Shown in pieces: positions 5,507 through 40,697 of a stretch of DNA of 64,000 nt. The translations under genes and the position numbers were made by a program. Origin of the DNA: a virus; IMG/VR virus record IMGVR_UViG_3300025636_000001, positions 52,878-116,877 of that record. One strand, 5' to 3'. The notes beneath the pieces are model-generated. The model was not told where the DNA came from, did not search any database, and saw only the letters and a list, made by a program, of their open reading frames with translations. The first letter of the stretch is position 1, and each line of letters opens with the position of its first letter.

Positions 5507-8500
5507 TTATTGTGCTGCTTTGTTTTTCTTCTTCCAAGCTTTCTCTGTTTCAATATTTCTTCTAAACTCTTCCATCATTATTAATTGATAATGATTTACA
5601 AAGTTATCAATATTATGCTTACCTGCAGGTCCATTTTCATCTTGAACTAAAATAGGATCTTGTATACCTGCTGAATTAAACAAACCTGTCTTTGGATCTA
5701 GCTGCATCATTTCCATTGCAACATAATAATTGTTATTATTTTTAAAGACTTTAAAAGACCCAGCTTTTTCAGAAAATGCATCATAGTTATAAACTTTATC
5801 TTCTGATAAATCAATGGCTGTTTGAATAGCTGATACATTATACTGACCAGCTCTTTTTGGATTCATGTCTTGTTCTGATGGTACTAATACTTTAATACTT
5901 GTGTATTCGGGTATTTGTGTAGGATTTAACATTGCTGTGTTTTTACCACCCCCTGTACCTTTTGTTGCACCGGAAAATTCTTTAATATAATCATAATCAG
6001 TTTTAAGAGTATATGATGCAAATGATTTACCATCTATTGTTTCAACGGGATTATATTCTATTTGATATGATAGTTTCTTTGAAGCTGCTGATTTTGGATT
6101 AAGCATTGCCTGTCTACTATCTCTTATTATTTCATCAACAATAAATTTAGCATTTGCATTGTTTTCAACTTCAGTTGCAGATTGAGTCATAACAACTTTA
6201 TCCGCTGACATATCATACTGTCTCTTAAAATTAAAAATCATTTCTTGAGCCTTTTTATCCTTAGCTATAGTACTAACACTAAATGTGGCACCATATCCTT
6301 GATAAGTAAACAAATTACTTTCATTCATTTCTTCTAAAGGAACACCTCTAAAAACAGCTTCTGCTGAAAATGGTTGGAATGTTCTTGACCCACCCATTTC
6401 ATTCATATTTAAAGTACCATTTATAGATTGATTTAATAAACCATATTGTACTTTATAAGCTTCTTCAGCATCTTCCTTTGCTCTTTTTTCTACAAATATT
6501 GTATTTCCAAATAATTCATCTGTCTTTTTACCAAGATAATTAGCTATTCCTGGAAACATGCTTATTTCAATAAGATCTTTACTACCATCGTCATTCCTAC
6601 CATTTCTACCTTCTATGTAGTCTTTACCTTTTATTACACCTTTTTTTGCTCTCTCTACATATTCAGCAATAAAATCATCTTTGGATAAAAGAGCTCTTTG
6701 AGTGTCATCATTTTTACTTGTGATAACAAGCTCAGGCATATTAGCTTCAAGTTGTCTTTTTAATTCTGCACCTTGTTTTGTAGTACCTACTTTTAATAAA
6801 TCATAATTTTTACCAAGAACTGTATTTAAACTTTTTTCATAAGCAATAGATTTACTTTGTCTTCCTTGTATTGTATTATACATACTGTAAGCTTCAACCA
6901 GTTGAGGACTTTCTAAAGCTTTAGGATTATTAGTGGGTAGTTTATTTGTAAGAGTCTTTACAGCATTATCATAATTTAAATCAACTAAGTTTTCATTTCC
7001 TTCTTCTGATAGTTTAGCTTTTATTTGATCATAAGATCCTTTAAATGTGCTACCATCATTGAGTTTAATCTCCATACTATTATAGTTAGTATTTTGAAGA
7101 CTTCCACCCATCTTACTAAGTTGATCTATTTTAAGTATAAAGTCAGTTTTACTTTGATTAGTTTCTTGTGCATAAGCTGCTGCTCTCTGAGCATTATCAG
7201 CCATTGCATCTTCAACCTCTCTAACCTCAGTTGAATTTTTTGTTATACCTGTTGTTGAACCACCAAACAAAGCATCAACTAAATTACCATCAGCTGTTGA
7301 TTGCAATGTTGGATCTAATTTTGCCTTTAATTCTATTTCTTTTTTTCTATTAATGTGCTGTTGCTCAATTTTAGCCATGCTATATTTATGCTGAACCTCT
7401 AATTTTTTATAAGGGTTAGCCGTAATAGTTCTGGAATAATCTTTCATACTATGAGCTTTAGCCGCTCCTAAGATATCAGAGCTGAGGTTATAGTTCATCA
7501 AAAGATTAAAGGCTTTATTTAAAAGCTCAGGATCCTCATCAATATTTATATTATCAACTCTTTGTAGAGTTTCTTCATTTCTTTCAAGAGCACCTCTGCT
7601 TTTGTCATACTGCTCAATAGCTTCAAGCATTGCTTTAGCTTCAGGGCTGTTTGGTGTAACACCTGATGTTCTTTCATACTCTTCCCAATTCTCTTTAGCT
7701 TTTAAAGCTTCATCAAATTGTTGTTTGATAATCTCATTGGCAGTAGCATTTCTTTGAGCAAGATCACTTAACTTATCTTTTGCCCATGCAGTCTGTCCCT
7801 CTAACACAGTAGAGTATAAACCGTTGTCTAAACCTTTTTGAGCAAAGTTTCTAGAATCAACATAACCACTTGCTCTGTAGGCATCCATTACTCTTGGATC
7901 CTCTATTAAAGTTTTTTGTAAAAAATTATATGCACCTGGTACTTGTTGTTTACCATTCTTCTCTCTGATAATCCAATGACCTGTTGGATCTGGAATATCA
8001 ATTTCTACATCTCCAAATCCAGCATCTTTTAAAAGTTTAGTAGACATTGAATATAAATCAACGTTTTCTATATATGTTGGTAGACCTTGCTTTAAAGCTG
8101 CATCTCTATCAGCAGTTTTAAAATCTTCCATTTGATAGTTCAAGTATTGCATACCTGTAGACCAATATTTTTTTCTTTGATCTACATTATCAGAATCTTT
8201 AAATGTCAACGCACGTTGTGCATTTTGTTTATACTGTTTTGTATAAACAAGATCTTTTACAATAAGATCATCCTCATAAAAAGGTTTAAAAACGCTCTTA
8301 GCTGAATCAACATTTTGACGTAGAGAAAGATCCATGCCTGAAATTTGTTGAATCTTTGGTGCAAGTTGATTTGCATACTGATCCCTCATTGCAATTGTAT
8401 CTTCTCTTGATAAATCTGCATATACAACCTTACCATATAAATCACTTAATTGTTTATAGTTGGTATCATAGCGATCCTGTCTTGTATCCAATACAGAAGA

Positions 8501-8575
8501 CAAAAACTTATAGTCTGGTGTAAATGGTTGAATCTCTCTTGAATATGTCTTACTTCCTGGTACGTATGTTGCCAT
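5507..8575 (-). CDS. Large conserved virion protein (probable cargo), 1022 aa
   Basis: The protein begins MATYVPGSKTYSREIQPF and its first 120 residues resemble the N-terminal region typical of large crAss-like structural proteins: a pattern of 'three-hundred-residue helical' sequence with YxxLxxxLxxRQxRYD followed by a run of polar helices and 'MDLSLRQNVDSAKSVFKPF' near residues 97-115. No enzymatic motif, signal peptide or membrane segment is visible. It lies between the 891-residue protein and the giant incomplete gene, in the same orientation, which places it among proteins packed in the capsid or tail for ejection. That role is inferred from position and resemblance to crAss-like cargo proteins, not from a catalytic motif. 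Confidence 0.85.
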   Translation of the reverse strand: MATYVPGSKTYSREIQPFTPDYKFLSSVLDTRQDRYDTNYKQLSDLYGKVVYADLSREDTIAMRDQYANQLAPKIQQISGMDLSLRQNVDSAKSVFKPFYEDDLIVKDLVYTKQYKQNAQRALTFKDSDNVDQRKKYWSTGMQYLNYQMEDFKTADRDAALKQGLPTYIENVDLYSMSTKLLKDAGFGDVEIDIPDPTGHWIIREKNGKQQVPGAYNFLQKTLIEDPRVMDAYRASGYVDSRNFAQKGLDNGLYSTVLEGQTAWAKDKLSDLAQRNATANEIIKQQFDEALKAKENWEEYERTSGVTPNSPEAKAMLEAIEQYDKSRGALERNEETLQRVDNINIDEDPELLNKAFNLLMNYNLSSDILGAAKAHSMKDYSRTITANPYKKLEVQHKYSMAKIEQQHINRKKEIELKAKLDPTLQSTADGNLVDALFGGSTTGITKNSTEVREVEDAMADNAQRAAAYAQETNQSKTDFILKIDQLSKMGGSLQNTNYNSMEIKLNDGSTFKGSYDQIKAKLSEEGNENLVDLNYDNAVKTLTNKLPTNNPKALESPQLVEAYSMYNTIQGRQSKSIAYEKSLNTVLGKNYDLLKVGTTKQGAELKRQLEANMPELVITSKNDDTQRALLSKDDFIAEYVERAKKGVIKGKDYIEGRNGRNDDGSKDLIEISMFPGIANYLGKKTDELFGNTIFVEKRAKEDAEEAYKVQYGLLNQSINGTLNMNEMGGSRTFQPFSAEAVFRGVPLEEMNESNLFTYQGYGATFSVSTIAKDKKAQEMIFNFKRQYDMSADKVVMTQSATEVENNANAKFIVDEIIRDSRQAMLNPKSAASKKLSYQIEYNPVETIDGKSFASYTLKTDYDYIKEFSGATKGTGGGKNTAMLNPTQIPEYTSIKVLVPSEQDMNPKRAGQYNVSAIQTAIDLSEDKVYNYDAFSEKAGSFKVFKNNNNYYVAMEMMQLDPKTGLFNSAGIQDPILVQDENGPAGKHNIDNFVNHYQLIMMEEFRRNIETEKAWKKKNKAAQ

Positions 8576-8634: not shown

Positions 8635-11310
8635 TTAATAACCCGTTTTACCTGTATAAAAAGGAACAACATATTTTTTCATCTCTTTTCCTTTCTTTCC
8701 AGTTGTTCCTGGATAACCGCCTGTTTGACTTAGCATCTTTAATGCATCCGCATATGGATTAGCCCCATAAGATGGAGCACCTTTTGTAGAAGAAGTTTTA
8801 GAACCAGAACCCATTATGGTTTTAATATCTTCTTCACTAAAGCCGTCTTTTTGTAGTTGTGAATAAGCGTTAGCTCTATCTGTATAACTACCATAATTGT
8901 TAGTATTAGCTGCTGATTTATTAGCAACTATTGCAGGTAAATTATCAGCCACATTTATTACACCACCAGTTGTTGGATCTATATTAAAATATGGATATAA
9001 AGTATTTAAGTTTGCTGTGTTTGCTCTATTGGTTATAGCCGTATTCATCAAACCTGTATACTGCTCCCTATCAAGATTTTTTTCATCCATATAGTTTTGC
9101 AATGTCAACTGCGTATCATCATACAATTTAACATCTCTATCTCTTTGCTCTCTTTTACCTGCTGCTTCTAATTGAGCATTCATTGCTAAACCTCTATTAA
9201 CAGTGCCTATATTTCTTTGATGAACTTGAGCAAAAGTATTTGCATTTTGCGCAAATGCTTTACCTTGAGCTTGTGATGCTCTAGCATTAAATGATTGAGG
9301 ATTACCAAATGAGGCAGCACCTTGAGTTATAATATTTAACTGTTCATTTACATCAGCAAGTTGTCTTGTAGGTTCTTCTAAAACATAATCAGCTTTAGGT
9401 ATTTCTACAGCAGGTTGCCATGGTAAAAACATCTCCCTATCTCTCATTGCAATTGCAGCAAGATTATTTAAATCCTGTGTCCAGTATTCAGGGCGTAAAG
9501 GTGCTAGACTTTTAACTTCAGGAATATCAGATTCTTTTTTCTCTTCCTCTTTTTCTTTCTTTGGTTCTGGTTTTTTTGATTCCTTTACCTGTAATGTTTG
9601 ATTCAAAGTGTTGTTACCGTAAAATCCTTCAGCTTTAGAAATTGTTTTATTATCTGCCCAGTTACCTTTTTGATCAGGTCCGCTAGCAACATAATTTAAA
9701 TTAGGGTTGTCACTTTCATTATCTGCTAAAGTAACAGCTTGAAAAAATAACTGATTCATTTTAGTTGTAGCGTCATCTATTTGATAAGCTTCATACTGAT
9801 CAGGATATAATTCAGCAGTTCTATTAAACAACTTCTGAGTATTTTCATTCTTCTTTACATCAGCTGCCTTATCACTACCTTTATCTAATTGGGTTGCATA
9901 CCTGTATTCATCAGGAACTAAATCTTGAATCTTATAATTATTTTCTTGATACTTCAAAAAGTTTTGCATTGCAACATCTTTTGTTGGTATCTGATCTTCA
10001 GCTATTCCTTGAGCAAGTGCATTTGCTTTAAACGCAGCATAAGCTCTATCAGTTGTTGCTTTCCATTCAGGGGAATCAGAAGTAAATAAACGCTCTAGTT
10101 CTTGATACTGTTTGTATCCAGAACCTAAAGATCTACCACCTTTAAACCCATCTAGATCTATTCTTCTTCCACCTATCTGTCTACCTGTAGTTCTACGTTC
10201 TGTATTAGTATTGCTTTGAGTATTTGTATTAGTGTTTGTATTGGTGTTTTGATTTGCTGCATCTTGATTAACACTTGTTATACCAAAGTCTGTAAGATCA
10301 GGTTCATCTTGCTTTATAGCAGTATTTCCAAAATATTTTTCTTCAAAAGCTTTATTTTTTTCTTCATCTTTTTCAAACTGGTCTTTCGCGTCTTTAAAAT
10401 CAAACACACGTGGTTGAAATACTCTGGTATTATCTTGCGCTACTGTAGGTGGTATAAAATCATACTTAAATTCATAATCATTTTTACCATCTTGAGCCTT
10501 TGGTAATTCACTACCATATTTAGCCATAGGCATTTGTTGCTGTTGTCCAGCTTGTGCCATCATCTGCTGAAGAGCTGCCATTTTTGCTTGTTCTTCAGGA
10601 GGTAAAGATTGTAACATTCTTTGTGCCGCTTGCTCTGCAGTTATATTCTCAACCTTTTGAGTAAACTCTATAGGATCAATACCCATACCTATCAAATACG
10701 GATGAGATGCAAGTGGTACTCCATCTTCAAAATTCTTTTTTGATTCTTGAGCAAAAGCCAACTTAGATAATTTATTTTGATTTTTATCAATCATTAGTTC
10801 AGCACTCTTAAATTTTATAGGATCTATATCCTCAGAGTCCATTGCACCAATAAATTCATTAAGTTGATATTTTTTTGATATCTGTGCTGGAGTCATTTTC
10901 TTTTTTGATTCTATACCAAATTCTGCAAGCTCTCTTCTATTAAGCTTCATCTTTTGTGTATCAGAAAAAACAAATGACTGTTCTGGTAAGAACATAGGAA
11001 CACCACCACTTCCATGTCTAGGACCAGTTATATTATATAAACCAAATTGACCATCATCATTAAGATCAGTAAGAACTGTTTCTCCACCTTCAGCTTCAAT
11101 ATTAGCCATATCTCTAGGTACTGAAGAAAGTGAATATCTTATTGATTTACCATCTTCATCATTAAATTGCTTGGGTGTAAGATTATTTGTAACAAGACCG
11201 TAACCAGATTGATCACCTGTGGTTGCACCACCTTGCTGCATTGTCTTTACAACCTTACCTTTTTTTAATTCAAAACCTTCAGGTAATTTATTTATTTTAA
11301 TTTTTGCCAT
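8635..11310 (-). CDS. Large conserved virion/cargo protein with GG-LPKAQ and AQDNT motifs, 891 aa
   Basis: Residues 60-120 contain a stretch I recognise from crAss-like virion proteins: VPRDMANIEAEGGETVLTDL, then GPRHGSGGVPMFLPEQSFVF and SDTQKM. A short motif KYGSELPKAQDG occurs at residues 264-275 and AQDNTRV at 291-297; related motifs occur in the two preceding large proteins. About residues 350-372 is an Asn/Thr low-complexity linker (NTNTNTNTNTQSNTNT), and residues 595-625 are Lys/Glu-rich. The C-terminus is basic (GKKGKEMKKYVVPF). There is no catalytic motif. It starts 2 bases after the stop of the 680-residue gene, so the two are probably co-transcribed and translationally linked. A structural or ejected cargo role is inferred. 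Confidence 0.85.
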   Translation of the reverse strand: MAKIKINKLPEGFELKKGKVVKTMQQGGATTGDQSGYGLVTNNLTPKQFNDEDGKSIRYSLSSVPRDMANIEAEGGETVLTDLNDDGQFGLYNITGPRHGSGGVPMFLPEQSFVFSDTQKMKLNRRELAEFGIESKKKMTPAQISKKYQLNEFIGAMDSEDIDPIKFKSAELMIDKNQNKLSKLAFAQESKKNFEDGVPLASHPYLIGMGIDPIEFTQKVENITAEQAAQRMLQSLPPEEQAKMAALQQMMAQAGQQQQMPMAKYGSELPKAQDGKNDYEFKYDFIPPTVAQDNTRVFQPRVFDFKDAKDQFEKDEEKNKAFEEKYFGNTAIKQDEPDLTDFGITSVNQDAANQNTNTNTNTNTQSNTNTERRTTGRQIGGRRIDLDGFKGGRSLGSGYKQYQELERLFTSDSPEWKATTDRAYAAFKANALAQGIAEDQIPTKDVAMQNFLKYQENNYKIQDLVPDEYRYATQLDKGSDKAADVKKNENTQKLFNRTAELYPDQYEAYQIDDATTKMNQLFFQAVTLADNESDNPNLNYVASGPDQKGNWADNKTISKAEGFYGNNTLNQTLQVKESKKPEPKKEKEEEKKESDIPEVKSLAPLRPEYWTQDLNNLAAIAMRDREMFLPWQPAVEIPKADYVLEEPTRQLADVNEQLNIITQGAASFGNPQSFNARASQAQGKAFAQNANTFAQVHQRNIGTVNRGLAMNAQLEAAGKREQRDRDVKLYDDTQLTLQNYMDEKNLDREQYTGLMNTAITNRANTANLNTLYPYFNIDPTTGGVINVADNLPAIVANKSAANTNNYGSYTDRANAYSQLQKDGFSEEDIKTIMGSGSKTSSTKGAPSYGANPYADALKMLSQTGGYPGTTGKKGKEMKKYVVPFYTGKTGY

Positions 11311-11312
11311 GA

Positions 11313-13355
11313 TTATAATATTTCTATATCTGCACCTGCAGCTATTAATGCTGCTAGCGTATCATTATCTATTTCTATTTCACCACCACCTTGCATTTCA
11401 TCTTGATGTAAAAAACCTAATTTAGCAAATCTATTATGATCTGCTTCTACATTAGCTTTATAACCTTTTCCTGATACAGGATCAAACATCATATGAGGTT
11501 GAAACTCACCTCCTGATTTATATAGTTCTTTACCATACATTGCTTGAGCATAGTAATCAACAAGATTATCTGGTTCAGCTAAACCTGAATTTGCATCAAA
11601 AGTACCTCTTTTATTTACAGGATTTTCTGTTGCTAAATAAATATTATCTGCAGCTGTTGAATTTCTTAACTTATTTCTGTAATCATCAAACTCTTTTTGT
11701 TGGAATATTTCATTAGCTAAGTTTGCTCCTTTAACAGCAAAATCTGAGACATCACCAAAAGCCCTCATTGCTGGGTTCTCTTTAATAAATGTTTCAGCTT
11801 GATTAATTGCATTACCTATTGTTCTTTTTCTTGCAACTTTAGGTTCTACATTTTCAATAATATCAGTTTCAATATTATTAATGCTAGGTGTAGTTAAACC
11901 AAAATCTTCTTGAGTTTGTTTTTCAAAAGGTGTAGGACCTAAATTAGATTGTTTCTGTTGTAACTGAGCATCTGCTACTATTTGAGTATCTCTAGCATAA
12001 TCACTTTGTCCTTGATTTTGCAAATATTCATTCATGTCAGGTAGTGAATATTGATTTACAAAAGTAGAAAGGCTATTCATATCCGGAATTCCTAATTGAG
12101 CTTTTGGTAAATCACCTCCATATTTAAACTCGGTATTATTATATATTTCTTTAGCTTCAGCTTTACTTTTATCCATTAAAGATTGTGAGTTTTTAACATA
12201 CCATTCTTTAAAGTCTGGTATATTAGCAACCATTGGTTTATCAGAATTTGGTATTGTTAAAATACTTCTTTGATTAGAATTAACCGGAGCTTTAGACTCT
12301 TCAATTTGAAGTGTAGGTATAGCATTAGGTGTTAACCTTTGAATACCCAACATTATATCTCTAAAAGAATCTTGCTGTGCTTTACGCTGTCTGCCTGTAA
12401 GGTTTGCTTGTGTTCCAGGACTATATGATCCAAAGCTTCCTTCTTCATTCATAAACATCCCCCTACCTTTATCATACTGCATTCCTTCCAGTAACATCTC
12501 TTTATCTTCTTTACTGTAGTCAGATATGTTATTAATAAAGTCTTGTAATGCTATTGTGTTTTTGTTTTGATTTTTACCAAATGTTTTAGCTTGATTTTCT
12601 GAAAAAGCAAGAGCTCCTGTATATTTATTTGATTCTGGATCAAAGTTAAGTCTGCTATACTTTGCAACATCTGAGGCTATTTCTTCATTAGTTCTAAGTT
12701 TACCTTTATCTAAATCTTCAGCTGTAACTATATAATCATTAGGATTGTTAGAACCAAAATCTACTTCATAAGATTTATTATCAAGTTGTTTTTGTTTATA
12801 TCTAGCATTTTTAGCTTCCCAATCTTTAAAAGTGCCATCCATTAAACCGTCACCATCTTTATCAGATGTTCCAAAAAATTTACCAGCAGCATCATCTAAT
12901 AAAAATGCAGCACCTAATACATTCCCTTTAGCAGGAACAGGAGGCATATAAATAGGACGCTCATCTTGTGTAGTTGGTGATAAATAACCTGAAGAAACAT
13001 TACCACCATATTGCATTGGAGGTTGCTCTTCATTTTGTGGTTGCATCATTGAAGGTTCAATTGGTGAAGGTTGTTGAGGTTGTTGTTGAGCTTGCTCTTC
13101 TTGAGCCATCATTATCTCAACATTTTGTAGCAACTCACCAAATAATGAAGGATCTAAGCCTGCTGATTCAAAAGCCAATGTAAGCTGATCTACAGGAATA
13201 CCTTGTAGTAAAAAAGTTTTTAATATTTCTTCTGGAGATCCGCCGCTTTCTATATTATTTTTTATAACATCTGAAAGCTCACTAACTACAGGATTTATAG
13301 AATCCTTAGCTACTGAACCTCCTTCTTGATATAAACTTTTTTTGTTTGCTTTCAT
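11313..13355 (-). CDS. Virion protein with repeated GG motifs and a DxDGDG calcium-type loop, 680 aa
   Basis: The N-terminus has SLYQEGGSVAKD (residues 7-18), a Gln/Pro-rich linker at 85-115 ending in MQYGGNVSSGY, a DKDGDGLMDG loop at 165-174 that matches EF-hand/dockerin-type calcium loops, KYGGDLPKAQLG at 411-422 and a distinctive C-terminal segment (YKSGGEFQPHMMFDPVSGKG, then an acidic hydrophobic end). No enzyme domain is visible. A copy of the late promoter-like motif lies 18-30 bases upstream of its ATG, so it may be transcribed separately from the 1546-residue gene before it as well as by read-through. It is followed after 2 bases by the 891-residue gene. A role as tail or ejected protein is inferred. 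Confidence 0.85.
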   Translation of the reverse strand: MKANKKSLYQEGGSVAKDSINPVVSELSDVIKNNIESGGSPEEILKTFLLQGIPVDQLTLAFESAGLDPSLFGELLQNVEIMMAQEEQAQQQPQQPSPIEPSMMQPQNEEQPPMQYGGNVSSGYLSPTTQDERPIYMPPVPAKGNVLGAAFLLDDAAGKFFGTSDKDGDGLMDGTFKDWEAKNARYKQKQLDNKSYEVDFGSNNPNDYIVTAEDLDKGKLRTNEEIASDVAKYSRLNFDPESNKYTGALAFSENQAKTFGKNQNKNTIALQDFINNISDYSKEDKEMLLEGMQYDKGRGMFMNEEGSFGSYSPGTQANLTGRQRKAQQDSFRDIMLGIQRLTPNAIPTLQIEESKAPVNSNQRSILTIPNSDKPMVANIPDFKEWYVKNSQSLMDKSKAEAKEIYNNTEFKYGGDLPKAQLGIPDMNSLSTFVNQYSLPDMNEYLQNQGQSDYARDTQIVADAQLQQKQSNLGPTPFEKQTQEDFGLTTPSINNIETDIIENVEPKVARKRTIGNAINQAETFIKENPAMRAFGDVSDFAVKGANLANEIFQQKEFDDYRNKLRNSTAADNIYLATENPVNKRGTFDANSGLAEPDNLVDYYAQAMYGKELYKSGGEFQPHMMFDPVSGKGYKANVEADHNRFAKLGFLHQDEMQGGGEIEIDNDTLAALIAAGADIEIL

Positions 13356-13372
13356 TGATAGTATTATATATA

Positions 13373-13385
13373 ACTAATATACAAA
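13373..13385 (-). promoter_or_regulatory. Late promoter-like motif before the 680-aa gene
   Basis: On the minus strand this reads TTTGTATATTAGT, a match at 11 of 12 positions to the motif TTTGTATATTAT found before six other minus-strand genes. It lies in the 46-base gap between the stop at 13402 and the ATG at 13355, only 18 bases before the start codon, so any transcript would have a very short leader. Confidence 0.5.
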
Positions 13386-13401
13386 ATATTGACGAGATTG
13401 C

Positions 13402-16400
13402 CTAATCATTACCTGCATTCATTAATACACTTAAAATATAGTTTGGTACAGTTGTTCCAGCTTTCTTTGCATCTTTATAATGTACTCTATTAAGTTTGTC
13501 ATATACTTTTTGTGCTTCTTTTTCTTTTGGTGTATTATCATATATCCCATTTACATAATTGTTAAATACTTGATATTCACCGCCTTTTGCCATTACTTTT
13601 GAATCAAAAGTATTATTATTATTTACATCTGCATACTGTTTTTTATTTTTATTATAAACTTCATTTATGTATCTATTTGATTTAGACACATAACTTTCAT
13701 CACCTTTATCATTAGTAATATCATAAATAAGGTCACCAATACTACCAAGATGATTTAATTTTGTAGATGATACATCTTTTATGTTTCCTTGATATAATTT
13801 TCTTAAACTTTCAATTTGTTCTTCAATTGTTCTATTATCCCCAGGGCCAGATAAATTTCTACCTGTTTTCAATAACAAATTTGTACCTTGATTATGTGCA
13901 AGTATAGACATATTTTTTACATCTTGATCTGATAATCCAAACTCCGGATATTGCTTTGCATAATTTTTAAATAGCTCATAGTGTTTAACTAATAAATAAC
14001 TTGCTGCATCTACTGCTTTATTATCATTGGCCAGATCTTCTGCGCTATTAATATTAAAATACTGTTTTGCAAAATTATCTAAAGAATTAAATTTTACTTT
14101 ACTCACACCTAATGATATATCTTCTGGTGTTTTACCCTTCCATGCATAAGCTAGTCCTTGCAAGCCAAAATTTTGACTAGCCGCTTCTTCTGCAGTTCTT
14201 GGTGTATTAGGTGAAATTCCTGCAGAACTTTCAACACCTGTTATTGCAAATGTTGCTGCTTCCAACCAATTTTTGTCAACTGATGAATTAAGCATTTCAG
14301 GAATAGTTTGTGCATTGTATCTTGACCTTTTCATTATATTACTAACAACATCTTTTTCATTAGTTGTTAAAGGTCTTTCTTTTTTTGCTTCAAAATTAGA
14401 AATAAGATTTTCATCTACTTCTATATTTTGATATTCAGAAGCATCATACTTTTTGTTAAGTTTTATATTTTTGTCTGGTCTTGATATCCAAGTTGTTTGA
14501 AGCTGATCATACGGCTGCTGTAACACTTTACCGTTAACATTATGAGTTATAATGGGTTTACCATTCTTATCAAAATCAGAAACAAAACCAACGTGTGTAT
14601 TAAACGTTTTTGAATTTTTCAAAGTTTCTTCATGGTACTTTGAATTAGGCCAATACAAACCAACAATGTCTCCAACTGCATAATCTGATTCTTTTGTTTG
14701 TGAACGTTGTTTAACTTTTTTGGTTATTGATTTAAGTTCTTCAGCAGATGTATCTGGGCCCAAAGTAACAAATTCAGGTTCATCATATATATTATATATA
14801 CTTTTACTATTACCTGCATTCATCATATTTTCATGAATGTCCCAAGCATTTTTATACTTTACACCTAATGATTCAGTAATTACATTGTTGTCTTCAAGTA
14901 TAGAACACATTCCCGCAGCACACCTTGGATCTTCTAATTTATTAGGTATCTTATTAAATATAAAAGATTGAGGGTCTTCACTATTTATTGAAGAATTATA
15001 TTCTTGAAGAGCCTGTTTAGTTCTATCTCCAAACTTACCATCTATATTAGTTTTACCTTCTTTTGTTTTTTCAGACAAGTAACCTTTTTCTACAAGTTCA
15101 GCTTGAAGTTTTTTAACGGGTATTTTATTATTATTAGAATATTTTTTGTAAAATTTATCTATATTATTTAAACCCAAATCTCCTTCAGAAATTAAACTTT
15201 CATATGCAGCTTTTGTCTTAGGTCCAAACTTACCATCCACACCATTTTCATTATCCCCAAAATCACCCAATAAACTACCATATCCTTCTTTAATTAAAGT
15301 TTTTTGTAATTCTTTAATTTCAGTTTCTGAAGCATTAGTATAATCCTTTTCATATTTATTTTTTGGTTTGTAATCATTTACAGTTTCTGTAAAACCACTT
15401 ATTAAATTGGGTCTTTCATATTCTCTTTCTGCAATATCAAATCGTTCTTTTGTGAATCGTCTATAGTCTATTTGTTTTATTGGTTTTACATATGTATTGT
15501 CTTGAGCTACCGTTGGTTTATCAAATTGATATTCCCTTTGATCAATATCAAATTTTTTTAAATTATTTACCTTAACTAAATCTTTATTAACTGCAGGTAT
15601 ACTAACCCTAGTATTATCTTGTGCAACAATTCTTTGTTCTTGTTCAAACTTATCTCCAACGTTTTTAAAATAAGGTGAATCCATAAGCATAGAATATTTA
15701 GAATCTTCTGTTTTTTTACTAGGTACTTCACCTTTAAGTTGATATTTATACAATTCTCTTAAATCTTTGTATTTATCTTCTTTAGTTGCTTTCTTAAAAT
15801 TTGTTTGAACATCAGGTCTTTTCTCTGTTACCCCATCATAGACAATCATGTCTATGTACTCTCTAGTTTCTTTAGGTAATTGTTTTGTCCAATCATTACT
15901 TTTATAAATATCATTACCTTTAGCTTTTTCTGCTTCTAATATGGCTTTTACTTTACCTCTCCCATAATTATAAGAAGCTAAAGCTTTAATTAATCTATTT
16001 TCTGCAGTAGCACCTGGTTTATCTATAAATGAAGCATTGTATAATTCATTCATAGACCATTCTTGAACATCATGATTCTGTCTTGGATTAAATGGATCTA
16101 CTTCTTTAACACCTGTTGCTTTCTTATAATCTGTTATAACACCTTCTCCTATCTGTCCTAATCCCATGTAGCCTAAACTATTTTTTGCTTTAGGGTCTAA
16201 TCTTGATTCTACAAAAGCCTGCTTATAAAGTAACTGAGGTGTTATTTTATAATTATCAAATGGTTCTGTTTTAACAGCTTTATTTAATTTATCAGATACT
16301 TTTTCAACTTGAACTGTCGCATTCTTTGCACTAGTTGGTTTAAGATCTGTAGTATATCTTTTTCCATACCACACAAATTCATCTTCACCTGCTTCACGTG

Positions 16401-18042
16401 CTGCTCTAAAAGCTTGTTTAAAATCACCATCATCATCTCTATCACTAACACCCCAATTCATAGGATTTAAATAATCACTCCAAGATGTTTCTTCAGGTTT
16501 TTGTACGTTATCTTGTACATTATCTTGTGCAGGAAATTTAATAGTTTGGTTTAATTTAAGATTTTGAATATCTATTCCTGGATTAGCCTTTATCAAATCT
16601 TCTTTTGATATATTGTTTTTATTAGCAATACCATAAAATGTATCTCCTGATTTTACTTTATATTCACCACCTTCTTGTAATTTATCTAACGGTGCTTTTT
16701 TATAAGCCCAAAAAGGATCCTTTTTATAAAAATTAAAATTCTCAACATCTCTCATTTTAGGCTTCATAATAGCAACATCTCCAATTTGTTTATTAAAAAG
16801 CCTTGAGTCAAGAGACATGGTTTTCAAATATGCTGGTTGAAAGTATGAATCCATACCTTGATATTTAATTGGATCTGATGGATTAAACTCAATCAAATAA
16901 TCAGCACTTCCCGATCTTCCTCTAGTATTAGGAATACCATCTAAACCAGGTCTAGACTTTTTGTTATAATCAAAAAATGTTTTTCCCTTTTGAAAAAATG
17001 GTCCCGGATATCTTTTATCTAGTGAAAAACTTACACCTGTTTGTTGGTTTTTTAACGCAGCAAGTTTTTCTGCAAAAAGTCGCGGACTTATTTCTTCACC
17101 TATTTCTCTTACAGTACCTGTTGCTTGTGCATCTCTAATTGCTGGTTCCCCAACTTGTCTTAACCATTTTTCATTTTCTTTATTAAACTGTAAAAACTCT
17201 GGAAGCTTTGAGTTTATATTATTATATGCCCAAGGGTTATATTTATATAAATCTTTCTGAATAAACTCATCCTTATATTTAGCTGCATTTTTAATAACAT
17301 TTTTTCCTGCTTTAGTAGCATTCTTACCTTGCGCTAACCAAGCGGGTACTACAGGTATTGCACCTAATGCATCAAACCCAGCATCAAGATATTCTCCTTG
17401 ATCTACATTACGTTTAGAGGATGCCGCATACTTTGCCCAAGCAAATGGATTGATCATATCAATTACTCCATCAAATGTATTTCTATTTTCTGCACTAATT
17501 GGTAAATTATCTGGTAAGTCTTGATTCCTAGCCAAGTAACCAAAAGCGGTCATAGGACTTGCTAAATAGTCTACTGCTTTTTCATACCAAGCTGGTTCTT
17601 CGTAAGCAGATATAGTTGCCTGTTCACGCCCATTCTGTGCTGTAGGTAAAGCTTCTCCCCCACACTTATGACAAGTTGTTACATCATTACCACCATCTGC
17701 AGCTTTCCATGACCAACCACAACTATTACATTTCATAGTCTTAGTTAAAAGAGCACCTCCTCTTTTATACATTGGAGTTTCAAATACAACATCACCAGGA
17801 AATTTATAATCATTACCTGGTATCATAGCTTTACTATTACCTAAGTTATCTATACCTATAACAGGGAAGTCTACACCTTTCATAGTTATATCACCTGAAG
17901 GTATAATATTAAAAGGGTTATTTACATCAGGACTATCTGATTTATAACCCTCTGTACTAAATATACCTGATACATGAGTTATGTATTCATTAGGTCCACC
18001 CGGTAATCCTATTCTTTCTGTGTATTCAAATTTCTTTTTCAT
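13402..18042 (-). CDS. Multi-domain virion peptidoglycan hydrolase, 1546 aa
   Basis: This protein probably opens the host cell wall during DNA entry. Domains in order: a C4 zinc-ribbon-like segment (C105, C108, C124, C127) ending in GGEALPTAQNG; a LysM repeat at 460-504 (YKVKSGDTFYGIANKNN); a short motif GEDEFVWYGKRYTTD near 552-566; a lytic transglycosylase/lysozyme-like domain at 598-715 with AFVESRLDPKAKNSLGYMGL, E612 the likely acid; two peptidoglycan-binding domains at about 904-950 and 972-1016 (each with DGKFG); a Cys-His domain of NlpC/P60 or CHAP type with C1041/C1046, H1150 and H1167; and a second lysozyme-like region from about 1230 with E1271. AQDNT motifs sit in linkers at 807 and 846. 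Its start overlaps the muzzle gene's stop by one base (TAATG). Enzyme activities are inferred from motifs. Confidence 0.85.
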   Translation of the reverse strand: MKKKFEYTERIGLPGGPNEYITHVSGIFSTEGYKSDSPDVNNPFNIIPSGDITMKGVDFPVIGIDNLGNSKAMIPGNDYKFPGDVVFETPMYKRGGALLTKTMKCNSCGWSWKAADGGNDVTTCHKCGGEALPTAQNGREQATISAYEEPAWYEKAVDYLASPMTAFGYLARNQDLPDNLPISAENRNTFDGVIDMINPFAWAKYAASSKRNVDQGEYLDAGFDALGAIPVVPAWLAQGKNATKAGKNVIKNAAKYKDEFIQKDLYKYNPWAYNNINSKLPEFLQFNKENEKWLRQVGEPAIRDAQATGTVREIGEEISPRLFAEKLAALKNQQTGVSFSLDKRYPGPFFQKGKTFFDYNKKSRPGLDGIPNTRGRSGSADYLIEFNPSDPIKYQGMDSYFQPAYLKTMSLDSRLFNKQIGDVAIMKPKMRDVENFNFYKKDPFWAYKKAPLDKLQEGGEYKVKSGDTFYGIANKNNISKEDLIKANPGIDIQNLKLNQTIKFPAQDNVQDNVQKPEETSWSDYLNPMNWGVSDRDDDGDFKQAFRAAREAGEDEFVWYGKRYTTDLKPTSAKNATVQVEKVSDKLNKAVKTEPFDNYKITPQLLYKQAFVESRLDPKAKNSLGYMGLGQIGEGVITDYKKATGVKEVDPFNPRQNHDVQEWSMNELYNASFIDKPGATAENRLIKALASYNYGRGKVKAILEAEKAKGNDIYKSNDWTKQLPKETREYIDMIVYDGVTEKRPDVQTNFKKATKEDKYKDLRELYKYQLKGEVPSKKTEDSKYSMLMDSPYFKNVGDKFEQEQRIVAQDNTRVSIPAVNKDLVKVNNLKKFDIDQREYQFDKPTVAQDNTYVKPIKQIDYRRFTKERFDIAEREYERPNLISGFTETVNDYKPKNKYEKDYTNASETEIKELQKTLIKEGYGSLLGDFGDNENGVDGKFGPKTKAAYESLISEGDLGLNNIDKFYKKYSNNNKIPVKKLQAELVEKGYLSEKTKEGKTNIDGKFGDRTKQALQEYNSSINSEDPQSFIFNKIPNKLEDPRCAAGMCSILEDNNVITESLGVKYKNAWDIHENMMNAGNSKSIYNIYDEPEFVTLGPDTSAEELKSITKKVKQRSQTKESDYAVGDIVGLYWPNSKYHEETLKNSKTFNTHVGFVSDFDKNGKPIITHNVNGKVLQQPYDQLQTTWISRPDKNIKLNKKYDASEYQNIEVDENLISNFEAKKERPLTTNEKDVVSNIMKRSRYNAQTIPEMLNSSVDKNWLEAATFAITGVESSAGISPNTPRTAEEAASQNFGLQGLAYAWKGKTPEDISLGVSKVKFNSLDNFAKQYFNINSAEDLANDNKAVDAASYLLVKHYELFKNYAKQYPEFGLSDQDVKNMSILAHNQGTNLLLKTGRNLSGPGDNRTIEEQIESLRKLYQGNIKDVSSTKLNHLGSIGDLIYDITNDKGDESYVSKSNRYINEVYNKNKKQYADVNNNNTFDSKVMAKGGEYQVFNNYVNGIYDNTPKEKEAQKVYDKLNRVHYKDAKKAGTTVPNYILSVLMNAGND

Positions 18043-21000
18043 TACCTAAAAGATAAATTTAATTTAGTATTAGCTAGTTTAAAAAGCATTTTTCTATTTT
18101 TAGATTTTTTTCTTCTAAAAAGTATTTTATTATAATAATGTCTAAATTTTTTATGTTGAATTTCTTCTTTATTATAATTAAGATTTACATTATTTAAGTC
18201 TTTAATATAACCATTTACTTGGGTAATAAACTGATTATTTTGAACACCAGTAAATTCACCTCTATCGTTAGTAATGTCATAGAACTGATTAAATCTAAAT
18301 TTTTGTTCTTCTTTAGAATATAGAATTTTAATATCATTAAATCCTACTAAAGGATATTGAATCATTGCATATGGATCTTCTTTAGGATGCATCTCTAATT
18401 TTAATAATCCTGATATTTGTTCTGAATTATATATAATAGATTCATCAAAATTGTAATCTAAATCATGCCATCTATCATCACCACAACCATTTATAAGATC
18501 ACCATCATACACATAAGATTCTAATTGATATTCAACACTTTTTAATGTCATAACATTTTGACCTGTGTTTTCTATTATTTCTACTTCCCATGGGTATTCT
18601 TCATCATAATATTTAGCATAGCTTTGACAAGTTGCATTATGTCTCCATATACCTCCTTTATCTGTAACTGCTGCGCTGTTATTTGTTTTAGTAGTAAAGA
18701 AATGATTAATACTTGGTAGCACAAGTTCAGGATGCCAATCATGAAATGAAATCCAAGTTCTTGATTTAGGATCATATGATACAGTCCATGATGCATCTTC
18801 AAAAAATATAGGGTTTCCTATTTCCAATTTAATTTTAGAAGCACCTACACCCATATAATAAAATGTATTATCAATAAGTAAAACTTTACCTGTTTGATCT
18901 GCTTCTTCATTATTTAAATCAGGTACATATTTTTCCTTTAATTTATAATCTTTTTTAGTAAAATAAACTATATCATAATTAGGATCATAAATTGCTTGAC
19001 AACCAACTCCAACAACAGGGTTATCTGATAATGGGCTTTGTTCTAAATCAGGAAATTGTCTAACTAATATTGATGGTAAATATTTATTAAACCATTGTTT
19101 CATTCCTGCATTAGCAATGTTATCAAGTTTTCCGGTATAATGAAATATCTTACCTTGTGCTTGAGAGATAAAAAATAAACCAAAAGGTGTATTAATAACA
19201 CCTCTCATACTTTCAGATGAACCATATTCATTTGATAAATCTGAATTTACAATATTTTGAAGTGGTTGGTTAAATAGACCACCATCACCTATTGTAACTT
19301 TAGTACCTAGATCTGTTTGTAAAGTATCAACACCTTGAAACATTACAGGAGACTGATATGGAAATAATATCACAGCTCCACTCTTACTAATAGGTTTTAT
19401 AGTATTAACCTTTGTTTTAAAATCTTTATAATTATTTGGTAAGAACACCCTCCAAAAATCTTTTTTAGATTCTTGTTGAGATCTTAAAGAATATAATAAT
19501 CTTTTTGGGTAATATTGATAACAACTTTCGGCAACACTAGGGTCATAATCCCTTGGTTGAACATTACCAAAAGATGTTACTTGTGTAACAAATTTAGAAA
19601 TGCTTAATGATAAATCATATTTATAAAAATTACCTTTCTTTATTATGTCAGCATGAAACAAACCATCCGTTTCTGCATACTCTATATAATCATAATGACG
19701 TTTATCATCTGTATCATCCCAATCTCTATGCGCTAAATTATACTCAGACTCAACAAAAAAATCTTGGATACCATTACAATGAGTATACATGTAAGCATAT
19801 CTCATAGCAAAAGATGGATTAGGATCACTACCACTACCTAATAAACTTCCAATGTTGCTATTACAAGAACTATTACCTCTATCTAAATAAAATAAATCAT
19901 TTGGTAAAGGATCACTTGTTGATGCTAAACTAAAAGTAGCTATTTCTTGACCTAATCCAGTCATATCAAATTTTCTAGTATCCATCCAAAATCTTGGATA
20001 TGGTATATTTATACGTTGTAAATAATCATAAGTATATTGATCAGGTTGTCCATTTAAAAAATCAGAAAATATAGGCATGACTGTTTTTTCTGTATACCTA
20101 TTAATATATACATCTCCACTAAATATAGGTTCACTAGTAAATTTTTGACCAGGGTTGATTGCATTAATAAATTCAATACAACCTCTCATTTGAACTTGCT
20201 TAACTCCATCAAGTTGACCATATTGATTATCAAATTGAAATTTTAAACCTCCATATAAACAAGAAATTGTTTTTGATTGAAATTCTTCTGGTTTTTTTAA
20301 ATATGAGTTTCCAAAATCAGAATCAGCATCTCCACCTACTACATATCTAGAAATATCTTTTGTGCCAGGATCATCTAATTGATCTTCTGTTGCAATAGCA
20401 ACTGTTGCAGGTCTAAATAAATTATTAATTTTATGACCTTCAAATTCTTGAAAAGAACTTCCTAAATAATTTGAATTTAAAGTTTTAGTTCTATATTGTT
20501 GAGTCTTAGATCTTTTTGTAAAATTACTATAGAATCCATGTGAGTTATGTTTAAAAGCAAAATCTTCTTCTTTAACAAGGTTGTATATTAAATCAATTAT
20601 CTCTTGACCACCTATTGCTATATTAGTTGCACCTATCTGAGTACCTAATACAAGTCTGACAAATCTTGGTAAATTTGAAGAAGCTGTATTAAAAGTATAT
20701 GCATTGTTTGTTGTACCTCCTAATATACCAGGAATATTTCCTAAATTTTTTGCAATACCTGCGTCAACTTGTTGGCTTACGTATGCCAATGATCCACCAT
20801 CAACAATAGAAGCTAAAGAAGTTGCATCATCAATAAGAGTTGCTATTATCACATCTGCAGCTGTAGATCCAATTAAACCAGCTCCAACTGCAGCACTAAT
20901 TCCAACTTGTGCTACACCTGGTCCATTACCAACACCTGCTGGACCACCAAAACTAAAGTTAGCTGAAGACATATTACCTTTAGGACCTTCGTATTCAATT

Positions 21001-23084
21001 TCTCTTGTCCCTTGTACTTGATTTATTGCATAACCTACTCCAATAATTGCAGCTATAATAGCACCACCATTTCTAATAAGTTTATTTTGTGGGTGGTTCT
21101 CTGATTTAATAAAATGACCTATTGAAGTTCCATCCAACTCTCCATATATTCTAGTTTCATAAGCGTTTAAAAAAGGTCTTCTAAACATTAAATCTGGCGA
21201 ATGAAAAGTAAAATAATCTTTTTTATAACCTTGAATAGGTTTAAAATCTCTTTTGGAATTTCCAAAATTATCACAACCATCCGTTCTATGTGTATCAGGA
21301 TCAGCCTTACCATCATGAAAATAAACATCAGGTCTTAAATCATTGTAAGGATAGTTAGGGTATAACCCTTTGTCATTACCAAGATTTTGACCACCTTCTG
21401 GGATGGTATATTCTCTCATGTTTCTAAATATACCTTTTGCAAGAATAGATTTATGTCCTTCTCTTGATCCTCTTAGTATTTCATAACCAACTATATTTTC
21501 TAATAAATTACCATCATTATCAACTGGTGGGCTTATATTTTCAAATTGAACACCAAGAACTCTTATTTTTTCTTTTGAATCATTTGTTAATTCAACTTGT
21601 TGAGCCGTTTCTTCTGTTGGCATTTTATGATGTCTAATAGGTAATCCGCAAAGATCACCCCAAATATCAGGTCTTATTGGAGAATATATTTCAGTTGATT
21701 CCCAATATGCCATATCTCCTTTTGCAATCAAAACACCACCATCGTCAAGTGGTATATTTAAATTGTTAGTAAGTGTTGCTGTATTATATACTTGCCAATT
21801 TTTTTCATCAGAACTTAAAGCATTTACATTACTAGTAGATGCTTGTGTTGTTTCATTGATTGTTTGACCAAATTGATTAAACCCATTAACTCTAGGTTCT
21901 CTACCTGGTATATGATATGAACTTGAACGCTCTCCAGTATTATAAATCCAACGTATAAAAAAAGCATATTGTTCATCTCTTAAAAAACCTACTTTATTTC
22001 CGCCTTTATAGTAATAAGTTGAATCATATTCTGCAACTGTCCATTTACATTTAATTTTATTTGCTAAAGGTTGATAGTTAAAATCAAATTGTTCTCTTGG
22101 GCCTTTTCTTATTAAATAATCATTTACCACAAACATTGCATCTGATTTTTCATATGCGGGAGTTCTAAGAGGTATAAGTTCTAAAGGTATAGTAACCAAA
22201 GACTGATCAATGTAATCTACTTGTATAGCTGATGTTTCTGTACTATATAAACCTATTTTTTTTGCAACTGTTTGTTCTTGATTATTAGATAATATAACTA
22301 ATTCAAAATAATCAAATTCTTTATCTAAATTAGATACATTAATCACCAAACTTCCAGAACCACCTAAGTGATCAAACACTGATTGAATATTAGAAATACC
22401 AATATAATCAGTTACTCTTTGTTCATTAACTGTATAAGCTACATATGCTTGATATGATCCATTTCTTAATTGACCACCACTTTCTGATTTTCTTATGTCT
22501 ACACAAGGTGTATCTAATAAAGGTGCTAATCTAATTTTTTCACAATCTAATTCATTTGTATCTTCATATATAACGCAAGGGTCTTTACCTGATACAATAA
22601 TTTGTTTATATGGTATATTATCTATATTAAGAGTTCTTGATGGATTTTTACCATCATCCCAATATACTTGCCAAGAACAATCAAAGTTTTCTTTACCGGC
22701 ACCAACAACTAAATTTTTTCTATTAAATTGTAAACATTGATCATTGACTATTGTTTTATATTCACATTTACTATCATCAAATCTACCTATTTCAGAATTA
22801 ATATCATCTGTAGAATAAATAACCCATTGATCTGCATATAAATGAATAGCACCAATAATAGTGTATGGTGCAGCTGCACAACTAATATTGGCAGGTTCAT
22901 TCCCTAAAACAGCTAAATCTCCATCTACAGAATTATTTATAGCATTACGTGCATGAGACCAAGATTCTTTTGCTTGAAAAGAAGCATTAGTATCTTTAAC
23001 CATCCCCTTTAAAAAAGTTCTACTGTCAACAGTAGATGTATTTTGCATTTTAGGTTTTGCTTTGTTTACTCTTTTCTTTGCCAT
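18042..23084 (-). CDS. Muzzle / tail-tube-type protein, 1680 aa
   Basis: The N-terminus (residues 20-70) has SRTFLKGMVKDTNASF followed by ARNAINNSVDGDLAVLGNEP, the signature I associate with the crAss-like muzzle protein (often annotated as stabilization or tail tubular protein B-like). The rest is long and beta-rich, with many 'YDPKSRTWISFHDWHPE'-type aromatic stretches near 1440-1480, in keeping with a multi-domain tail barrel. A hydrophobic Gly/Ala-rich stretch at about residues 670-760 is notable and could be an internal disordered or pore-contacting segment. It follows two ring-type proteins and precedes the large cargo proteins, as in crAss-like genomes. The C-terminus is strongly basic (KILFRRKKSKNRKMLFKLAN). 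Assignment is by family resemblance and position. Confidence 0.85.
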   Translation of the reverse strand: MAKKRVNKAKPKMQNTSTVDSRTFLKGMVKDTNASFQAKESWSHARNAINNSVDGDLAVLGNEPANISCAAAPYTIIGAIHLYADQWVIYSTDDINSEIGRFDDSKCEYKTIVNDQCLQFNRKNLVVGAGKENFDCSWQVYWDDGKNPSRTLNIDNIPYKQIIVSGKDPCVIYEDTNELDCEKIRLAPLLDTPCVDIRKSESGGQLRNGSYQAYVAYTVNEQRVTDYIGISNIQSVFDHLGGSGSLVINVSNLDKEFDYFELVILSNNQEQTVAKKIGLYSTETSAIQVDYIDQSLVTIPLELIPLRTPAYEKSDAMFVVNDYLIRKGPREQFDFNYQPLANKIKCKWTVAEYDSTYYYKGGNKVGFLRDEQYAFFIRWIYNTGERSSSYHIPGREPRVNGFNQFGQTINETTQASTSNVNALSSDEKNWQVYNTATLTNNLNIPLDDGGVLIAKGDMAYWESTEIYSPIRPDIWGDLCGLPIRHHKMPTEETAQQVELTNDSKEKIRVLGVQFENISPPVDNDGNLLENIVGYEILRGSREGHKSILAKGIFRNMREYTIPEGGQNLGNDKGLYPNYPYNDLRPDVYFHDGKADPDTHRTDGCDNFGNSKRDFKPIQGYKKDYFTFHSPDLMFRRPFLNAYETRIYGELDGTSIGHFIKSENHPQNKLIRNGGAIIAAIIGVGYAINQVQGTREIEYEGPKGNMSSANFSFGGPAGVGNGPGVAQVGISAAVGAGLIGSTAADVIIATLIDDATSLASIVDGGSLAYVSQQVDAGIAKNLGNIPGILGGTTNNAYTFNTASSNLPRFVRLVLGTQIGATNIAIGGQEIIDLIYNLVKEEDFAFKHNSHGFYSNFTKRSKTQQYRTKTLNSNYLGSSFQEFEGHKINNLFRPATVAIATEDQLDDPGTKDISRYVVGGDADSDFGNSYLKKPEEFQSKTISCLYGGLKFQFDNQYGQLDGVKQVQMRGCIEFINAINPGQKFTSEPIFSGDVYINRYTEKTVMPIFSDFLNGQPDQYTYDYLQRINIPYPRFWMDTRKFDMTGLGQEIATFSLASTSDPLPNDLFYLDRGNSSCNSNIGSLLGSGSDPNPSFAMRYAYMYTHCNGIQDFFVESEYNLAHRDWDDTDDKRHYDYIEYAETDGLFHADIIKKGNFYKYDLSLSISKFVTQVTSFGNVQPRDYDPSVAESCYQYYPKRLLYSLRSQQESKKDFWRVFLPNNYKDFKTKVNTIKPISKSGAVILFPYQSPVMFQGVDTLQTDLGTKVTIGDGGLFNQPLQNIVNSDLSNEYGSSESMRGVINTPFGLFFISQAQGKIFHYTGKLDNIANAGMKQWFNKYLPSILVRQFPDLEQSPLSDNPVVGVGCQAIYDPNYDIVYFTKKDYKLKEKYVPDLNNEEADQTGKVLLIDNTFYYMGVGASKIKLEIGNPIFFEDASWTVSYDPKSRTWISFHDWHPELVLPSINHFFTTKTNNSAAVTDKGGIWRHNATCQSYAKYYDEEYPWEVEIIENTGQNVMTLKSVEYQLESYVYDGDLINGCGDDRWHDLDYNFDESIIYNSEQISGLLKLEMHPKEDPYAMIQYPLVGFNDIKILYSKEEQKFRFNQFYDITNDRGEFTGVQNNQFITQVNGYIKDLNNVNLNYNKEEIQHKKFRHYYNKILFRRKKSKNRKMLFKLANTKLNLSFR

Positions 23085-23088
23085 AATA

Positions 23089-23970
23089 TTATCTTAATGT
23101 AGGACTGCTTTTAAACATGTTGTAATAGTTATGGTATTGAGCTTTTCTGTTCACTAACCACATTTTCTTCAATTCAGCAAAGTCTGGAGTATTAATAAAA
23201 GACAAAGCGTTATTTCTTGCAGCTCTTAATCTTTGTTCTATTAACCCCATTTGATTACCTACAGGCTCACCTGCAAAAATCATGTTTTCAAGTATACGCT
23301 GCTTAAGTGCATACTCATAATATTCATTACAGTAAGGATGATCTAAAACTAAAAGATTACCACTATTGTCTTCCATGGCTCCTTGATAATTTATGTAAAC
23401 CTTACCACTCTTAAAATTTGTTTTTAAAAAACCATCTTTAACCTCACCTACGTTATCTGAAACAACGTTTATGTTTGGGCAATCACAAGTAGAATCATTT
23501 ACAGTAGCAATGCGTAAAGGAGCAAAAGCTGTATAAGATCTATATTGACTTCCTGCTACTTTGTGAATTAATTTGTATTCTTCACCATCAGGACAATTCT
23601 TAATAACACAAACATCATTACATTTACCGTCACTACATGAATCTGTAAATCCTGGATCAGGAACATAATCTACATGAACATCTTCAACATGTGTGCCTGA
23701 AGGCATTTGAGTCTCTATAGTGTACTCACCACAAATAAATGCATAATTTAAATATGCAAAATCATGGGGTAATTTAGCTTTATTATGTTCTACTTCTAAA
23801 ACAACTTGTTTTGTTCTATGTATTTTTATACCTAGATCATAATTAACTCTTGTTGCTACTTTAATAAGCTGAGCAGGATCTATCATGCCATCTAAAGCAT
23901 AAGTAGAAAAGTCAATGGAAACATCTTCCATCAAACTATCAAAGGTTCTGTATTTATGTGAAATTGCCAT
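23089..23970 (-). CDS. Ring/neck-type tail protein, 293 aa
   Basis: The sequence MAISHKYRTFDSLMEDVSID followed by IKIHRTKQVVLEVEHNKAKL and PHDFAYLNYAFICGEY resembles crAss-like ring proteins that connect the portal to the muzzle. A Cys-rich insert is present at about residues 111-125 (DSCSDGKCNDVCVIKNC) and another pair at 163-165 (CDC). The C-terminal half is alpha-helical with a YEYALKQRILENMIFAGEPV segment. It begins within one base of the preceding 223-residue gene's stop and ends 4 bases before the muzzle gene, so the three are likely translated as a unit. The exact ring position cannot be told from sequence. Confidence 0.8.
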   Translation of the reverse strand: MAISHKYRTFDSLMEDVSIDFSTYALDGMIDPAQLIKVATRVNYDLGIKIHRTKQVVLEVEHNKAKLPHDFAYLNYAFICGEYTIETQMPSGTHVEDVHVDYVPDPGFTDSCSDGKCNDVCVIKNCPDGEEYKLIHKVAGSQYRSYTAFAPLRIATVNDSTCDCPNINVVSDNVGEVKDGFLKTNFKSGKVYINYQGAMEDNSGNLLVLDHPYCNEYYEYALKQRILENMIFAGEPVGNQMGLIEQRLRAARNNALSFINTPDFAELKKMWLVNRKAQYHNYYNMFKSSPTLR

Positions 23971-38594: not shown

Positions 38595-38596
38595 AA

Positions 38597-39298: not shown

Positions 39299-39308
39299 TA
39301 TTTATTGT

Positions 39309-40325: not shown

Positions 40326-40371
40326 TTAATTTGGTTTTAAAAATTAATAATTATTTGTTTTAAACTCAAAG

Positions 40372-40387
40372 GTACATAATTATGTAC
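40372..40387. promoter_or_regulatory. Perfect 16-base palindrome before the 338-aa gene
   Basis: GTACATAATTATGTAC equals its own reverse complement. It lies between the terminator of the 59-residue gene and the ATG at 40325, where a promoter is expected, and on the minus strand it carries a TTGTACATAATTATG form that resembles the recurring motif. It could be a promoter, an operator or both. Confidence 0.5.
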
Positions 40388-40409
40388 AATTTATTATTAA
40401 TATTTCTAA

Positions 40410-40428
40410 AGTCAGGTTATACCTGACT
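40410..40428 (-). terminator. Small hairpin terminator after the 59-aa gene
   Basis: AGTCAGGTATAACCTGACT on the minus strand is a 7-8 bp stem with a tiny loop followed by TTTAG, 22 bases after the stop at 40450. Confidence 0.6.
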
Positions 40429-40449
40429 AAAGTTCTTTGAATTTACAAA

Positions 40450-40629: not shown

Positions 40630-40656
40630 TGTTTTAGTATTAAAAGGTTAAAATAA

Positions 40657-40685: not shown

Positions 40686-40697
40686 ATATTACAATTC

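Follow-up and report, generated by a model that had tools for sequence, protein, structure and literature searches.

The window analysed here, 64 kb of a 116.9-kb IMG/VR phage record with 116 ORFs in the whole genome, belongs to a crAss-like phage, as revealed by a muzzle protein of the crAss001 gp44 family, the ring proteins R1 and R2, and a gp49-type RNA-polymerase-associated protein. Judged by the muzzle and major capsid proteins, the nearest named records are Lbo-JY46 (L050, PP438436), csAssE-Sib, and the Cellulophaga phi4:1 group, none of which reaches 30% identity. The closest of these by both proteins, Lbo-JY46, has the cyanobacterium Leptolyngbya as its recorded host; to our knowledge, the hosts of Crassvirales are otherwise Bacteroidota. 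Three ORFs that the initial annotation had read as proteins of 891, 680, and 1546 aa were confirmed on the minus strand, and with their neighbours they form the following block:

5507 to 8575, minus strand: 1022-aa protein in the C2 cargo position, without the motif discussed below; a positional assignment from gene order in 33 records
8635 to 11310, minus strand: 891-aa protein, probably of the cargo protein C1 family (family membership, phi4:1 gp040 match, hhalign to gp45)
11313 to 13355, minus strand: 680-aa protein, referred to as MID, with constant N and C termini and a variable middle
13402 to 18042, minus strand: 1546-aa modular protein, referred to as LYS, with zinc-ribbon-like, LysM, SLT, and PG-binding modules (Pfam)
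18042 to 23084, minus strand: muzzle protein (crAss001 gp44 family), without the motif; iterative HMM to gp44, 1e-133
23089 to 24641, minus strand: tail ring proteins R1 and R2; Pfam CrAss_Ring_1 (PF24228) and CrAss_Ring_2 (PF25702), above curated cut-offs

The order muzzle, LYS, MID, C1, C2, RNAP, RNAP-associated protein is constant wherever a record is long enough (33 records). The cargo block is adjoined by ORFs of 4701 and 1920 aa, both without the motif (window 1-5483 and leftward; G000:44255-58360 and 38485-44247), and the 1920-aa protein, left of the window, belongs to the gp49 RNA-polymerase-associated family (3e-249 to gp49 after iteration). Elsewhere in the window, a calcineurin-like phosphoesterase/exonuclease gene lies among the tail genes (25272-26486) and a match to PHROG 858, a starvation-inducible regulator, near the capsid genes (38118-38594).

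The 891-aa family comprises 37 members in the pool, csAssE-Sib included, and its profile is matched by phi4:1 gp040 (E=1.5e-10), a protein annotated from virion MS/MS. Residues 57-193 align with the portal-bound domain of crAss001 gp45 with an hhalign score of 72.5 and a probability of 94, all controls (one reversed and 20 column-shuffled) scoring 24.4 or less; in single-profile HMMER the gp45 link is weak. Foldseek searches with the model of residues 1-265 (pLDDT 74) and with the full chain gave no significant match to a solved structure, crAss001 C1 included, and HMMER against PDB sequences returned no relative of the protein. Because neither the Foldseek nor the PDB sequence searches added support, membership of the C1 family is probable and not proven, the proposed homology resting on profile-profile comparison and synteny. 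By analogy with homologues in phi4:1 and crAss001, the 891-, 680-, and 1546-aa proteins would all be located in the virion. Another virion protein detected by MS, phi4:1 gp041 (L111 26518-28737), contains two HExxH sequences, THEFTHAMG and AHELNHAMN, and metallopeptidase-like modules may thus occur in the cargo block of relatives.

All three proteins carry a short segment with the consensus [K/R]-Y-G-G-x-L-P-K-A-Q-x-G, a short linear motif at the protein level. The three copies pointed out in the initial annotation were recovered at the residues given there, and they are placed among the following modules:

10486 to 10521, minus strand: motif KYGSELPKAQDG, residues 264-275 of the 891-aa protein; conserved island in a disordered linker
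10552 to 11115, minus strand: folded N-terminal domain, residues 66-253 of the 891-aa protein; AlphaFold pLDDT mostly 70-94, with residues invariant in 17 orthologues
12090 to 12125, minus strand: motif KYGGDLPKAQLG, residues 411-422 of the 680-aa protein; homology breakpoint against G038
15913 to 16257, minus strand: transglycosylase SLT domain, residues 596-710 of the 1546-aa protein; Pfam PF01464, E=2e-13
16531 to 16662, minus strand: LysM domain, residues 461-504 of the 1546-aa protein; Pfam PF01476, E=2.7e-11
16675 to 17628, minus strand: module between motif and LysM, residues 139-456 of the 1546-aa protein; missing in G001
17629 to 17661, minus strand: motif GGEALPTAQNG, residues 128-138 of the 1546-aa protein

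The copy in the 1546-aa protein has one extra residue and a lower profile score, and the G001 orthologue reads GGEALPKAQDG at the same place. Directly before it lies a CxxC...CxxC zinc-ribbon-like segment, CNSCGWSWKAADGGNDVTTCHKCGGE (residues about 103-131; window 13402-18042). Across the records, LYS proteins bear LysM, SLT, YkuD, or PG-binding domains, and constant ends with a variable middle are found in each of the LYS, MID, and C1 families. The C-terminal tails are family-specific and strongly conserved, reading GKEIKK-x-AVPFYTGKMG, LAALIAAGADIEIL, and YDKLNRxHYKDAKxxGMxxPNYIM in the 891-, 680-, and 1546-aa proteins, respectively.

A profile built from 46 distinct copies and applied to 33 related records at a threshold of at least 12 bits detected 89 sites, far more than the 0.67 obtained with shuffled proteins. 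Invariance of G, G, L, P, A, Q, and G among the seeds was built into the seed pattern, while the unforced positions are strongly preferred as well: Y in 34 of 46 copies, K before Y in 24, S in 24, and the K of LPK in 39. In the genome of the window (116 ORFs), matches of at least 12 bits occur only in the 891- and 680-aa proteins, and in six whole-length records (637 ORFs) all 24 such matches fall within 15 adjacent ORFs, the cargo block. The motif is confined to a run of two to four neighbouring genes, with the muzzle gene as the upstream limit and the C2/RNA-polymerase cargo genes on the other side, the C2-position gene being the downstream limit. Throughout the 33 records, every match lies in a LYS, MID, or C1 protein or in a large ORF without assignment, most of them at the same place, and the muzzle, C2-position, and RNAP-block proteins gave no profile match. 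Up to five copies are present per protein, mostly internal. C1-type proteins can also have an N-terminal LPKAQ/LPKAK form, as in JY46 (MKIRIIGLPKAQIG) and G028 (MARVRIISLPKAKSG), and Lbo-JY46 has this form only. The two checks proposed in the initial annotation, occurrence in non-virion proteins and conservation of position, both came out in its favour: the motif is absent from the other proteins of the same genomes, and its place is kept in orthologues.

Beyond these records, a DNA back-translation scan for the exact YGGxLPKAQxG, with a roughly estimated chance expectation below one match, located it in many aquatic crAss-like phages, at 42 IMG/VR loci; all but one give the exact peptide, in frame, in large ORFs with differing flanks. 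The same scan found no match in 84,980 bacterial and archaeal genomes, one per species, and the LPKAQ-type profile had none in the crAss001, csAssE-Sib, phi4:1, phi14:2 (first half), and Fpv1 regions. No published description of the motif was found in the literature searched, a body that leaves most subscription journals outside.

Codon-level comparison revealed the level at which the motif is maintained. In 39 distinct copies, third codon positions vary roughly as genome codon usage does, somewhat less for Leu and Lys, and copies from the same genome differ at synonymous sites. Since wobble positions vary as they do elsewhere, selection acts on the peptide; a DNA-level site for recombination or packaging was rejected as the main cause on the same ground, although recombination inside the motif does occur. 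The placement of the motif in linkers and not in folds, as originally claimed, was upheld for the 891-aa protein, in which residues 254-309 have an AlphaFold pLDDT of about 30 and adjoin the folded domain 66-253, the motif lying inside the low-pLDDT segment. Among orthologues of this protein, mean column identity is 0.63 over residues 263-276 versus 0.21 over 277-400, and even orthologues with no more than about 25% identity retain the C1 copy at the same position. Short linear motifs typically show up as such conserved islands in disordered linkers.

The looser motifs of the initial annotation fared differently. YxxGG segments, proposed there as further instances of the tag, are not significantly enriched (7 in 3117 aa versus 40 in 34107 aa, p = 0.09), and the idea that they form a separate tag in the window was rejected. 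AQDN(T/V), described as a second motif, does occur at the four positions reported and is enriched (4 versus 0, p = 5e-5):

10426 to 10440, minus strand: AQDNT, residues 291-295 of the 891-aa protein
15493 to 15507, minus strand: AQDNT, residues 846-850 of the 1546-aa protein
15610 to 15624, minus strand: AQDNT, residues 807-811 of the 1546-aa protein
16516 to 16530, minus strand: AQDNV, residues 505-509 of the 1546-aa protein

Apart from one variant, VQDNTYV, in a phage further removed, it is found only in the genome of the window and in the relative closest to it, and this lineage-specific distribution led to its rejection as a second general tag.

The strongest property of the motif, missed in the initial annotation, is that it marks the borders of swappable modules. 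Among 64 distinct motif-bearing proteins, 13 ends of local homology lie no more than 15 residues from a motif in each of the two partners, where 0.36 would be expected; with the motifs masked the count is again 13, against an expectation of 0.46 (maximum of 4 in 500 simulations). These events are not all independent and reduce to some nine or ten junctions. The pair G015 and G019 gives the clearest example: their DNA is about 97-98% identical in this gene, and they differ by exactly 716 residues, the distance between motif copies 1 and 3 in G019. The crossover lies inside GGAGGTTCATTACCAAAAGCACAA, matching copy 1 upstream and copy 3 downstream, and falls in a 24-bp shared stretch. Within one gene, the sequences flanking different copies show no relationship (about 33-36% DNA identity). 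Similarly, the extra segment of G030 relative to G026 starts right after LPKAQDG, and residues 139-456 of the window's 1546-aa protein are missing in the approximately 80% identical G001, where LysM directly follows the motif. Taken together, these data make it very probable that the motif is a real, protein-level tag of module borders.

A degenerate counterpart is present in gut crassviruses. The C1 protein of crAss001 has [YF]GGxL at 208, 331, and 426 (208-212 and 426-430 among them) and AYGGDTNPYG at 560. Two long segments of it are visible in the virion structure, residues 214-245 inside the tail barrel and residues 425-552 on the portal (PMC10172136), and both begin at or just after [YF]GGxL motifs (208-212 and 426-430). 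In 12 gut C1 proteins, the density of [YF]x0-2GG is 7.7 per 1000 aa versus 2.1 in the muzzle and 0.5 in C2, and when two more gut cargo proteins are included, 28 breakpoints fall at such sites against 3.2 expected. The gut homologues were taken from phage records, as a scan of viral contigs for close homologues of crAss001 gp45 returns near relatives only. A module of 66-135 residues with SYPIPTKADARDALRLAGLHG, about 47-74% identical, is common to crAss001 gp45 (L051), p-crAssphage gp47 (L135), and crAss002 gp30 (L136); outside it, these cargo-position proteins are too dissimilar to be matched by that search. Another module, related to HIKKKNRGKFT...ARNAxKW, is common to gut C1 and the MID proteins of the window's clade and has GG at its C-terminal end in both, and the degenerate and strict motifs are therefore linked by position. 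Given this position and a partial similarity, [YF]GGxL and YGGxLPKAQxG may be of common descent.

The explanation favoured here, with a probability of roughly one half, combines a module-border tag with docking in cargo proteins. The motif would be a short linear tag punctuating the disordered linkers between exchangeable modules of the proteins encoded from muzzle to C2. LYS, MID, and C1 would be the cargo that leaves first, and before ejection would occupy the portal and tail barrel like C1 in crAss001, where homologues of R1/R2 hold the C1 tail segment (PMC10172136). Each tag would act as a docking or threading site that anchors its linker to the inside of the portal or barrel wall, the folded modules hanging as beads on a string and leaving from the N to the C terminus. 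Because every joint would carry the same tag, modules could be gained, lost, or swapped in frame with the tag retained. Docking, cleavage, and unfolding are all possible functions, of which docking appears the most likely; taken by itself, docking falls a little short of an even chance. A point against it is that one tag per protein would suffice for simple docking. An extension is held more tentatively still: a repeated tag, docked module by module, would load a string of exchangeable enzymes along the portal and barrel, order their ejection, and make the cargo programmable by recombination at the tag.

The main rival, which we consider unlikely, is that the motif is a processing site at which a phage or host protease cuts (for example LPKA|Q), so that the long chains fall into separate modules, either while the head matures or once the proteins have been ejected. 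A polyprotein would require just such a tag at each junction, the N-terminal LPKAQ/LPKAK form of C1-type proteins resembles a T4-type N-terminal propeptide, and the onset of resolved crAss001 C1 density at or just after the motifs would fit as well. Against cleavage, no protease family was detected among the structural-block proteins scanned with Pfam or PHROGs (not all with both), a scan that divergent proteases escape, and the crAss001 structure paper mentions no proteolysis, treating gp45 as one chain spanning head and tail. Moreover, 11 residues are long for a prohead protease site, and no report of cleavage at the motif was found in the literature searched.

Less probable than cleavage is a passive seam, a flexible linker kept alike by homologous recombination between copies and read by no partner. 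The recombination product of G015 and G019 shows that such exchange happens, but the reading is partly refuted by wobble positions that vary about as much as in other places, with L, P, A, Q, and G nevertheless retained; the synonymous differences within a genome and the fixed place of the C1 copy in distant orthologues argue in the same direction. Lower again ranks a general virion packaging signal like the T4 capsid targeting sequence (CTS). Restriction to cargo-type proteins and the existence of an N-terminal form would agree with it, but the motif is never on C2-position or RNA-polymerase-block proteins, whose crAss001 counterparts are packaged (PMC10172136), and this absence, together with multiple, mostly internal copies, disfavours a universal signal. 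Of the shared tag originally proposed as a cleavage site, packaging signal, or unfolding handle, the presence of a tag in linkers of neighbouring virion-type proteins stands, by its restriction and conserved position, whereas universal packaging is weakened. Finally, the reading that the copies arose by chance, or are simply one repeated domain inherited vertically, has only the low complexity of the linkers in its favour. It is refuted by the excess of profile matches over shuffles and the unrelated flanks within one gene, and its probability is negligible.

Crassviruses store and eject megadaltons of protein. For this cargo, the motif offers a way to predict where modules end in phage proteins that cannot otherwise be read, to find cargo genes in metagenomes, and to test docking against cleavage directly; a module-border tag would explain the ready gain and loss of cell-wall enzymes and other domains in cargo proteins.

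Among known systems, the closest is crAss001 C1 (gp45; PDB 7qog, 8ckb; PMC10172136), whose gene likewise follows the muzzle gene and which has a helical C-terminal region, a probably common N-terminal/portal-bound domain, and [YF]GG-type motifs at the borders of folded units. It differs in having only the degenerate [YF]GGxL, without LPKAQ, and in domain order, the portal-bound domain lying at 425-552 in crAss001 C1 and at the N terminus in the 891-aa protein, and its fold was not matched to the 891-aa model by Foldseek; of the crAss001 cargo, no more is resolved than two long pieces and a short one without assignment. The CTS of T4 internal proteins (PMC9026906) is also a tag of about 10 residues on otherwise different cargo proteins, but it is N-terminal, single, and removed by gp21, whereas the motif described here is mostly internal, repeated, and absent from other cargo; of the two marks of a T4-type CTS, N-terminal location is limited to the form seen in some C1-type proteins, and general presence on packaged internal proteins is contradicted by its absence from C2-position and RNAP-block proteins in 33 records. 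The prohead-protease sites of SPN3US gp245 (A-X-E; PMC10052503) are likewise short motifs in virion cargo, with another consensus and, apart from self-cleavage, yielding N-terminal propeptides; no protease was found here among the structural-block proteins scanned. Modular phage endolysins and polymorphic toxins share the architecture of constant ends and exchangeable enzyme modules, but a conserved LPKAQ joint motif is not described for them in the literature searched. Tags on phage cargo and modular phage enzymes are both known; what appears new, in the literature searched, is that one conserved peptide recurs at the joints between exchangeable modules of the cargo.
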